Shown piece after piece: positions 33,002-36,497 of a stretch of 64,000 nucleotides of DNA. The translations under genes and the position numbers were made by a program. This DNA comes from Pseudacidobacterium ailaaui (GTDB taxonomy: Bacteria; Acidobacteriota; Terriglobia; Terriglobales; Acidobacteriaceae): positions 899,001-963,000 of the forward strand of contig NZ_JIAL01000001.1 in NCBI RefSeq assembly GCF_000688455.1. The letters are read 5' to 3'. Below the pieces are notes generated by a model that was not told where the DNA came from, did no database searches, and was given only the letters and a program-made list of their open reading frames with translations. Each line of letters starts with the position of its first letter. The stretch's first letter is position 1.

Positions 33002-35836
33002 ATGTCAAAAGAAATTTGCATCTCCAGCACGCCGCATGAGACGCGGCTTGCGATTTTAGAAAACGACCAGCTCGCCGAGATTTATTACGAGCGGGAAAAT
33101 GAATACACCCTGGCCGGTTCCATCTACAAAGGCCGCGTCACCCGGGTCCTGCCCGGAATGCAGTCGGCCTTCGTGGACATTGGACTCGAACGCGATGCCT
33201 TCCTCTATGTAACCGACTTTCTCGAAGAGCAGGAAGATTCAGCGGACTTTGAGCGCATCAGCGTCCCACCCGCCCCGAAGGCAGAGAAAGCAGAGGAGCA
33301 CGAAGAACAGCCATCCGCCGCGGAAGAACCGTCTGAGCAGGCCCCGGAAGGCACACGCCGCTGGCGTGGACGCCGTGGTCGCCGCGGCCGTGACACTCGC
33401 ACCGCGCAACAGGCGCAGGAAGAGAACGGACATCGTCCCGAAACGCCGGAGGCAGTAGTAGAAGAAAGTCCTGCCGCGGAACCAGCAACGGTCCCCGAGC
33501 AGGGCCTTCCAGCGCACCTTCCCATCCTGCTTCCCGGCGAATCTCTTTCAAAATATGGTGGCAGACCAGCATCCGAGCCGGAAAGTCCTGCTCTGTCCAG
33601 ACCGGTCTACACCACCTCCAAACCCTCTACTCTGGTAGAAGGCCCGATTGCATGGACAGGAGGAGATCTGCTTCCCGGTGAGTCGCGCGCCTGGCGTTCA
33701 GTCCGCTCCGAACAGGCAGCAGTCGACGGAGAAGCCGCAGCGGCCGTGGTCCCTGATCTGCCGGAAGTCCAGCCGGAGGAGGCCTCCGAGGCCTTTCCTG
33801 AGGCTGCCTCTCCTGAGGCATCGCCCACATCCCAAAGCGACGAAGACCAAAGCGCGACTGCAGAAGCACCGGTACCCGTCGAGGCCCCTGTCGCAGTCCA
33901 TGAAGCTGCGGCTCTAGAGCCGGAAGCGCCACTGGAAACCGTCGAAGAGGTCCAGGAGTACGAGCCAGAAAACGCCCAAGCTTCACACCGCGTTGACATT
34001 ACCTCTTCTCTTGAGTTCCGCGTCCCCGCCGCCGAGGAAAATGGACCCGCTGCTTCTTCCCTAGAGCCTGAGGAAGCCGCCGAAGTCAGCGAGGCTGTTG
34101 CCCCTCTGCAGGAACCTGCCGAAACCGCCGCCCAGCCGGCCTTTGAAGTGGAATATCAGGAAGAAGAGCAGCCGGCCCCAGCCGAGGAAATCCTCGAACA
34201 GGACGGTCAGCCGGCACACGAGTTCGCCCCGGGACCCGGCACCCTTGAAGAAGAAGTCATTGAAGAAGACGAATACGACTTTGAACCGCTGGCGGCCCAT
34301 GCCGATGAGCAGGACATCGAGGACCTCGAAGAAGAGGTGCTCGACCATGAGATAAACGGCGCAGACCTTGGCGCCATGGTCCGCGACCTGCACATCAATC
34401 AGCGCGTCCATTTTGGTCCGGAAGGCGCCTTGGTGGAAGAGGTCGATGAAGATCTTCCCTCGGAAACGGCGGAATCCGAAGCCGAGATGGAAGATGTTGA
34501 AGAGGCCGAAGAAGAAGTTGAGGAACAGCAGCAGGGACCTGACCAGGTCCAGCGCGAGCGCCGCCGCACCCGTGGACGCCATGGCCGCCGTCGCCACGGA
34601 GGAGTCCGCCGCGCCACGGCACAGGTGACCGACATGCCGGCCATTACCGAGCTGCTGAAGCCGGGGCAGGAGATCCTGGTCCAGATCGCAAAAGAGCCCA
34701 TCGCCAAGAAGGGCGCACGCATTACCAGCCACATTGCTCTGCCGGGACGCTTTCTGGTCTTCATGCCGACCGTCAACCATGTTGGCGTCTCACGCAAAAT
34801 CTCATCAGATGAGGAACGCTACCGCCTGAAGCGCATTCTCATCAGCGAAAAGGGCGCGGCTTCCGGCGGATTCATCGTCCGCACGGCTGCCGAAGGCGCC
34901 AGCGAAGAGGAGCTGCGCGCGGACCTGCGCTTCCTCATCAACCTGTGGAACGACATTAAGCACCGCTCGGACGAGGCCAAGGCCCCGGCCCTGATCTATC
35001 ACGACCTGAATCTGGTTGAGCGCGTGCTGCGCGACCAGGTCAGCGAGAGCTTCTCCACGATCTGGGTGGACAGCGAAGCAGAGTACGAGCGCGTGGTGCG
35101 CTTCCTGAACCGCTTCCAGCCCTCACTGGTCCGGCGCGTCAAGCTCTATACCAAGGAGACCCCGCTCTTTGAGCAGTTCGGTATTCAGGACGAAATCTCC
35201 AAGGCCCTCAAATCCAAGGTATGGCTGAAGTCTGGCGGTTCGATTGTCATCAACCAGACCGAGGCCCTGGTGGCCATTGACATCAACACCGGCAAATACG
35301 TGGGCAAGACGGCGCGGCTGGAAGACACCATCCTCAAGACGAACCTGGATGCCATTCCGGAGATCGTCCGTCAGATCCGTCTGCGCGACCTGGGCGGCAT
35401 TATCGTCATTGACTTCATTGACATGGACGAACGCAAGAACCGGCAGAAGGTCATGCAGGCGCTCGAAGAAGAGCTGAAGAATGACCGCGCTCCTTCCAAG
35501 GTGCTGCAATTCAATGACTTCGGACTGGTTGCCATCACGCGCAAGCGGGTAAAGCAGTCCCTGGAGCGTACCCTGAGCGTTCCCTGCTATATCTGCTCCG
35601 GCACAGGCATGGTGAAGAGCCCGGTGACCGTCTGCAATGAAATCTACATTGAGATGCGCAAGATGCAGAAGCACCTGGACCGCAATGATGTGCTGCTGCG
35701 CGTACATCCGGAAGTGGTCAAATCACTCAAAGCCAACAATGCGCGCTGGCTGAACGAAATGGAAGAGATGACGGGCAAGACCATCATCGTCAAGAGCGAT
35801 CCGACCATCCATCCGGAACAGTTCGACATTCACTGA
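33002..35836 (+). CDS. rng: Ribonuclease E/G family endoribonuclease with large low-complexity insert in the S1 domain
   Basis: The protein has 944 residues. Residues 1-80 are the first half of the S1 RNA-binding domain (AGSIYKGRVTRVLPGMQSAF, VDIGLERDAFLYV). Residues about 85-543 are an acidic Glu/Ala/Pro-rich insert bounded by Arg-rich patches (RRWRGRRGRRGRD near 118 and RERRRTRGRHGRRRHGGVRR near 518-537). S1 then resumes (LLKPGQEILVQIAKEPIAKK). The catalytic DNase I-like domain has the magnesium ligands Asp760 (VAIDINTG) and Asp804 (IVIDFIDMD), and the zinc-link cysteines 862 and 865. The enzyme cleaves mRNA and rRNA precursors. It ends without the C-terminal scaffold of E. coli RNase E. 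A strong terminator follows. Confidence 0.93.
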   Translation: MSKEICISSTPHETRLAILENDQLAEIYYERENEYTLAGSIYKGRVTRVLPGMQSAFVDIGLERDAFLYVTDFLEEQEDSADFERISVPPAPKAEKAEEHEEQPSAAEEPSEQAPEGTRRWRGRRGRRGRDTRTAQQAQEENGHRPETPEAVVEESPAAEPATVPEQGLPAHLPILLPGESLSKYGGRPASEPESPALSRPVYTTSKPSTLVEGPIAWTGGDLLPGESRAWRSVRSEQAAVDGEAAAAVVPDLPEVQPEEASEAFPEAASPEASPTSQSDEDQSATAEAPVPVEAPVAVHEAAALEPEAPLETVEEVQEYEPENAQASHRVDITSSLEFRVPAAEENGPAASSLEPEEAAEVSEAVAPLQEPAETAAQPAFEVEYQEEEQPAPAEEILEQDGQPAHEFAPGPGTLEEEVIEEDEYDFEPLAAHADEQDIEDLEEEVLDHEINGADLGAMVRDLHINQRVHFGPEGALVEEVDEDLPSETAESEAEMEDVEEAEEEVEEQQQGPDQVQRERRRTRGRHGRRRHGGVRRATAQVTDMPAITELLKPGQEILVQIAKEPIAKKGARITSHIALPGRFLVFMPTVNHVGVSRKISSDEERYRLKRILISEKGAASGGFIVRTAAEGASEEELRADLRFLINLWNDIKHRSDEAKAPALIYHDLNLVERVLRDQVSESFSTIWVDSEAEYERVVRFLNRFQPSLVRRVKLYTKETPLFEQFGIQDEISKALKSKVWLKSGGSIVINQTEALVAIDINTGKYVGKTARLEDTILKTNLDAIPEIVRQIRLRDLGGIIVIDFIDMDERKNRQKVMQALEEELKNDRAPSKVLQFNDFGLVAITRKRVKQSLERTLSVPCYICSGTGMVKSPVTVCNEIYIEMRKMQKHLDRNDVLLRVHPEVVKSLKANNARWLNEMEEMTGKTIIVKSDPTIHPEQFDIH

Positions 35837-35912: not shown

Positions 35913-36497
35913 TTATTTTGCTGCTTTCTTTGTTGCCTTCTTGACTGCTTTCTTTGCGGGGGCTTTCTTGGCTGCCGCCTTCTTTGCAGGGGCCTTTTTC
36001 GCCGCCGCCTTCTTTGCAGGGGCCTTCTTGACCGCTGCCTTCTTTGCTGCTTTCTTTACTGCCAAATTAGTTTTACCTCGTTTGCTTGATTTTTTACTGC
36101 CGGCGCTCTTCTTTTTGGCCGCAGACTTCGCAGCCTTGCCGCCGCCACGAGCGCTGGACTTGGCGGCAGATTTCTTTACGGCCTTGCGGGAGGCCGGAAG
36201 CTTTTTCGCAGCCTTTTTGGCTGGCGCTTTCTTCGCTGTTTTCTTTGCAGCCTTGCGGGCTGCTTTTTTCGCAGGCGCTTTGGGCGCAGCCTCAATCTTT
36301 TCTTCGGCGACGGAAGAAGGTACTTGAGCCGACGGCCTCTCTTCCTCCTCATCTTCCAGATCATCGTCGTCCGAAGAGATCGAGATACTTACTTCCTCTT
36401 CTTCGTCATGGTCAAAACCATCATCCACTTCTTCGGATTCATGGTGGCTGTCAAACTCGCTATCGTCCTGCGCGAAAAGTTTGCGGTCATCCTGCAT
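35913..36497 (-). CDS. Histone H1-like lysine/alanine-rich protein with acidic N-terminus
   Basis: This 194-residue protein has two opposite halves. Residues 1-70 are very acidic (EEEEVSISISSDDDDLEDEE). Residues about 72-194 are Lys/Ala/Pro-rich, with SPKK-like and AKKAAK repeats, including three near-identical KKAPAKKAAA units close to the end. The basic half resembles bacterial histone H1-like proteins and AlgP, which bind DNA without strong sequence preference. The acidic half could neutralise or regulate the basic half, which is inference. A promoter lies at 36578-36608 and GGAGG precedes the start; a shared terminator ends it. Confidence 0.87.
   Translation of the reverse strand: MQDDRKLFAQDDSEFDSHHESEEVDDGFDHDEEEEVSISISSDDDDLEDEEEERPSAQVPSSVAEEKIEAAPKAPAKKAARKAAKKTAKKAPAKKAAKKLPASRKAVKKSAAKSSARGGGKAAKSAAKKKSAGSKKSSKRGKTNLAVKKAAKKAAVKKAPAKKAAAKKAPAKKAAAKKAPAKKAVKKATKKAAK
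35940..36033 (-). repeat. Tandem 30-base coding repeats in the histone-like gene
   Basis: Three near-identical 30-base units encode KKAPAKKAAA or close variants. They are imperfect at the DNA level in a few positions and lie in the C-terminal part of the gene. Such repeats are prone to copy-number change. Confidence 0.75.

Follow-up and report, generated by a model that had tools for sequence, protein, structure and literature searches.

A predicted disordered insert inside the S1 domain of Terriglobia RNase E/G carries a near-invariant, class-specific short motif

To our knowledge, RNase E scaffolds have been studied almost wholly as C-terminal tails, and in Proteobacteria. The RNase E/G gene of Pseudacidobacterium ailaaui raises the question of what purpose may be served by a long non-catalytic region that is placed inside the RNA-binding domain of the enzyme. 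The gene lies in a stretch of 64,000 nucleotides (contig NZ_JIAL01000001.1, positions 899,001 to 963,000; hereafter the window). A sequence-only reading of this DNA had placed a large low-complexity insert in the S1 domain, at 33254-34630. Alignment with phmmer bore out the split and refined its limits to residues 79-545 (33236-34636). The relevant features are as follows (coordinates in the window):

33002..35836, + strand: RNase E/G gene, 944 aa, one continuous ORF; sole RNase E/G of the genome
33002..33235, + strand: residues 1-78, N-terminal strands and first S1 half (phmmer to 2bx2 residues 11-83; N-part HMM)
33236..34636, + strand: S1 insert, residues 79-545 (~467 aa), acidic, Glu/Ala/Pro-rich, predicted disordered
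33356..33400, + strand: N-side Arg-rich patch RRWRGRRGRRGRDTR (119-133), most family columns of 119-128 at 77-100%
33530..33556, + strand: motif copy 1, LPGESLSKY (177-185), conserved in the family, pLDDT >50
33671..33685, + strand: motif copy 2, LPGES (224-228), degenerate past the core (LPGESRAW)
34223..34279, + strand: conserved acidic stretch FAPGPGTLEEEVIEEDEYD (408-426), G413 and E416-418 at 87-90% in the family
34355..34408, + strand: predicted helix NGADLGAMVRDLHINQRV (452-469), pLDDT ~65, identical in the congener
34553..34612, + strand: C-side Arg-rich patch RERRRTRGRHGRRRHGGVRR (518-537), seen in the family alignment, adjoining the returning S1
34637..35833, + strand: residues 546-944, remainder of S1, 5' sensor, catalytic residues, Zn-link and small domain

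The complete 3.69-Mb genome contains one RNase E/G gene, and its product appears to be an active enzyme, judging by its intact catalytic residues. The Pfam domain RNase_E_G (PF10150) matches residues 580-850 (4.3e-104). In an alignment of 51 sequences the 5' sensor (R627, T628) and the catalytic D760, N762 and D804 are invariant, and the CxxC of the Zn-link (C862, C865) is nearly so; the catalytic Asp pair, 5' sensor and Zn-link cysteines of the RNase E/G family are thus all present. The protein passes the curated cut-off of TIGR00757 (Rne/Rng family). It stays below those of NF008689 (RNase G; 494 of 594 bits) and NF008074 (RNase E; 264 of 908 bits), and its top-scoring NCBIfam alignment is that to RNase G. 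The core HMM stops one residue short of the C-terminus, which leaves no C-terminal scaffold. The adjoining ORF (35913-36497, - strand, 194 aa) encodes a histone H1-like protein with an acidic start and a lysine-rich tail of the AKKAPAKK type.

Each half of the S1 domain has its counterpart in E. coli RNase E: residues 5-76 align with its residues 11-83 and residues 545-881 with its residues 94-430, with about 468 residues between the halves in the window enzyme versus about 10 in E. coli. In the phmmer alignment, the insertion falls after the third strand region of S1 and before the fourth. The insert consists of 19.7% E, 14.3% A, 10.3% P and 6.6% R and has a net charge of -80, in agreement with the acidic, Glu/Ala/Pro-rich composition described earlier. 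Disorder prediction, proposed at that time as a check, gave a FoldIndex of -0.21 and AlphaFold pLDDT values mostly below 50 across residues 72-549. Above this disordered baseline, values over 50 were found around residues 175-185 (LPGESLSKY), and helices were predicted at 436-446 and 453-469. Neither the motif, nor the helices, nor the acidic part is docked onto the catalytic core in the AlphaFold model. The second S1 half is itself poorly folded there (pLDDT 37-44 at 551-580), and the assignment of an S1 fold with an insert therefore rests on the sequence alignment. Foldseek searches with the predicted model returned RNase E matches only; their TM-scores were poor, as the model suffers from the long disordered arm.

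The family alignment revealed conserved islands amid fast-changing sequence. In order, these are the N-side Arg-rich patch, LPGESLSKY, its partial repeat, the acidic EEE stretch and the C-side Arg-rich patch. The description of the insert as low-complexity thus holds for its Glu/Ala/Pro-rich composition but not uniformly, as there are conserved motifs within it. Likewise, of the Arg-rich patches originally placed at both edges, the second does stand beside S1, but the first lies about 40 residues inside the insert. In several members of the class (L058, L061, L066, L068), the patches are less pronounced or could not be recognised.

Comparison across the Acidobacteriota, suggested by the sequence-only reading, found the insert in 47 of 47 Terriglobia sequences recovered with both ends, at lengths of 301-868 aa and always with a FoldIndex below 0. 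It is also present in named Acidobacteriaceae, Granulicella, Edaphobacter, Ca. Korobacter, Bryobacter and bins of gp1, gp3 and gp13, relatives that place the window within Terriglobia, in or near the family Acidobacteriaceae. Insert-free close relatives, which would have spoken against the original proposal, were not found among the Terriglobia sequences sampled; insert-free enzymes, with loops of 18-44 aa, occur only in other classes of the phylum. Between the window enzyme and that of its congener (G001), the reading frame of the insert is preserved despite many indels. Identity is 65% in the insert and 97% in the core, and dN/dS is 0.18 and 0.01, respectively, showing that the insert is under purifying selection. 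The nearest relative (L032, G001:C30) has a frame change in the first S1 half, representing either a draft error or a real break.

A near-invariant element of the insert, not noted in the sequence-only reading, is the short linear motif LPGES-[LI]-x-K-Y, which occurs in one to three copies. The pattern LPGE-x-[LIFMV]-x-K-[YF] matched 46 of the 47 class inserts (mean of 0.0 in composition-preserving shuffles), and the 47th reads LPGESLARF. Over 75 LPGE copies in these inserts, P, G and E are invariant. Inserts first scored as lacking the motif carry the variants LPGERLAKY, LPGEKLAKY and LPGEFIAKY, and LPGES is retained in four named relatives that do not match the pattern completely. At the DNA level, the motif pattern was found in 221 of the 249 genomes of the class and its backwards control in 2; that the match lies in an RNase E/G insert was confirmed for the scanned insert sequences and not for all 221 matching genomes. 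In a sample of the whole phylum, it matched 35 of 38 class genomes versus 2 of 259 others, and these two matches read FPGESLRKF and LPGESMTKF. The motif is therefore near-invariant and class-specific. A pattern search of this genome, including relaxed patterns, yielded no other convincing protein with the LPGES motif. The relaxed patterns matched no more than PGETIAEY of a universal-stress-like protein and two other chance sites, and we rejected the idea that the motif is widespread among the proteins of this genome.

These observations are best explained, with a probability of roughly 0.6, by a disordered RNA-binding scaffold inserted into S1, in which LPGES docks a Terriglobia-specific partner within a degradosome-like, possibly clustering assembly. 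The recruitment region would thus be sited in the loop between the third and fourth S1 strands rather than at either end of the protein, and the insert would form a long disordered arm on the RNA-entry face of the tetramer. Its Arg-rich patches, among them the N-side one, may hold RNA, by analogy with the Arg-rich short linear motifs (SLiMs) of Pseudomonas aeruginosa RNase E (PMC11964227), and the acidic middle may keep the arm soluble and extended. The one to three copies of LPGES-[LI]-x-K-Y would dock a protein partner confined to Terriglobia, and the holding of RNA together with partner docking would produce the assembly. The idea of a degradosome scaffold, already put forward in the sequence-only reading, is not proven, but it gains support because a near-invariant, sometimes duplicated motif and Arg patches have been retained amid fast change.

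Other explanations were also considered. A false fusion of two genes through an assembly or annotation error, named at the outset as a possible refutation, has a negligible chance of being correct, and nothing was found in its favour: the frame is single and contiguous, it includes both S1 halves, and the arrangement recurs in many independent genomes, with dozens of independent assemblies in agreement; we therefore rejected it. It is improbable that the insert is a tolerated low-complexity expansion of little function, accumulating Glu, Ala and Pro codons in a permissive S1 loop of GC-rich genomes. Such an expansion would account for the rapid change in length and sequence, as seen in the divergence between the congeners, but not for an insert that is never lost in the class sampled, has a dN/dS of 0.18 and keeps P-G-E unchanged in every copy.

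Two further explanations grant the insert a function of another kind. The conserved motif could serve cis regulation instead of recruitment: the acidic insert would lie as a flap over the RNA channel, mimic RNA and inhibit or gate cleavage, with LPGES latching onto the surface of its own enzyme. The smaller S1 insert of Caulobacter occupies the RNA path and deletion of the Arabidopsis insert lowers activity (PMC4245959), and the window insert, with its strong negative charge, sits in the equivalent loop. We nevertheless consider a flap unlikely, since the AlphaFold model docks neither the motif nor the acidic part on the core, the acidic part is flanked by basic patches, and a fixed latch needs no variation in length from 301 to 868 aa or in motif number from one to three. 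The insert might, alternatively, act mainly as a phase-separation element whose alternating acidic and Arg-rich blocks drive the formation of RNase E bodies, LPGES being secondary. Arg patches do surround the acidic blocks, and charge-patterned disordered regions of RNase E are required for the BR-bodies of Sinorhizobium meliloti (PMC12691583). Charge patterning, however, needs no invariant LPGES, and a sequence-specific motif kept throughout the class points to specific recognition, which makes this a poor candidate for the main role.

If the insert is a docking scaffold, PNPase, one of the two partners named in the sequence-only reading, and RNase J are candidate partners by their presence in this genome; RNase Y was not found above the cut-off. 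The C-terminal tail of the PNPase (L218, G000) is acidic and then Arg/Gly-rich (EDIDDFDDEAEEGEE...RRRRGRRRPGGGGNRR). The helicase partner suggested in the sequence-only reading has fared less well. Judged by score and frame length, none of the 12 DEAD-domain hits in the complete genome is a canonical DEAD-box RNA helicase of about 450 aa; those that could be named are Lhr-type (two), Mfd, RecG, PriA, Cas3g and RadD-like. Many of 61 class genomes do have a canonical DEAD-box RNA helicase (150-180 bits), but one of about 450 aa is also absent from the hits of G009 and G053, both of which keep the motif. A helicase dock is thus disfavoured by three genomes (G000, G009, G053), and since the canonical enzyme does not appear among the hits of these motif-bearing genomes, a DEAD-box RNA helicase is unlikely as the obligate partner of a class-wide motif. 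The genome also has a type I-G CRISPR Cas3 gene (L229, G000:C1:3680730-3681266).

The history of the insert was examined in an enzyme tree of 105 rows, built with the insert removed and without inferring a root. All inserts of at least 120 aa fell into one group of 65 rows (SH-aLRT 93), which has one member with a 108-aa insert. This suggests a single expansion, in a tree that is unrooted and does not settle gain versus loss. Extensions at the N-terminus (Holophagales, Thermoanaerobaculales) and those at the C-terminus lie elsewhere on the tree. The former, in Thermoanaerobaculales, Holophagales and others, span 364-973 residues in enzymes without an S1 insert (L209, L213, L215, L200, L084, L087, L097), measured as open frame ahead of S1, so that true starts may make them shorter. 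The latter, of 129-244 residues and mostly with Arg runs, mark a distinct RNase E/G clade (L079, L085, L096, L101, L103, L104, L105, L110, L124). Many genomes in the phylum survey have two RNase E/G genes.

In the sister group (Blastocatellia, Pyrinomonadaceae and allies), the inserts carry not LPGES but FERVxDD repeats, [FY][EQ]R[VI]xD[DE], plus a helix-like KDAxxQxxI stretch. Inserts of this type occur in L107, L108, L109, L115, L118, L122, L171, L186, L202 and their kin. No strong motif emerged from a search of the remaining insert groups, those with neither LPGE nor FERV. We tentatively suggest, as a possibility that falls short of being probable, that Acidobacteriota built degradosome-like assemblies independently on an S1 scaffold, with class-specific motifs (LPGES-[LI]-x-K-Y in Terriglobia; FERVxDD repeats and the helix in Blastocatellia and allies) on one ancestral insert, each recruiting a partner unknown in the degradosomes of E. 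coli or Caulobacter.

A literature search of papers available without subscription found none on Acidobacteriota degradosomes and none linking LPGES with RNase E. A 2011 survey listed the RNase E/G of the Acidobacteria group at 511 aa, with no predicted degradosome (PMC3071783). The closest precedent in location is the RNase E of Alphaproteobacteria and plants (Caulobacter, PDB 4OXP; Arabidopsis), in which the same S1 loop bears a charged, predicted disordered and variable insert. Those inserts measure 50-150 aa and are consistent only in location, charge and disorder, and that of Caulobacter partly folds over the RNA path (PMC4245959). In contrast, the Terriglobia insert is several-fold longer (467 aa in the window, 301-868 aa in the class) and has a class-wide invariant motif and Arg-rich patches. 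The window enzyme, with its one-residue tail, also lacks the C-terminal scaffold, for which the insert may stand in.

The closest precedent in composition is the RNase E of E. coli and Pseudomonas, where a disordered region likewise makes up half the protein and combines Arg-rich segments with short recognition motifs (PMC11964227, PMC4435900). In P. aeruginosa, Arg-rich SLiMs bind RNA and drive foci and other SLiMs bind partners, and known SLiM sequences are too divergent for partner prediction (PMC11964227). The disordered region is C-terminal in those enzymes and lies within S1 here, a sequence relationship between the two is not shown, and no RhlB, enolase or PNPase site was recognised in the window insert. 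E. coli RNase G and the insert-free Acidobacteriota enzymes share the catalytic core with the window enzyme, but their 18-44-aa loops have no motif. The Blastocatellia, Holophagales/Thermoanaerobaculales and C-terminal Arg-rich types also have long non-catalytic extensions, differing in motif or position.

Within the literature searched, S1-loop inserts were thus already known, and what is new is the length, the class-wide motif and the lack of a C-terminal scaffold, whose place the insert may take. A whole class of soil bacteria bears a predicted disordered region within the RNA-binding domain of this enzyme together with one near-invariant motif, so conserved and class-specific that it offers a ready bait for the proposed partner. 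With insert-free, S1-insert, N-terminal and C-terminal forms in one phylum, the effects of scaffold position can be compared.
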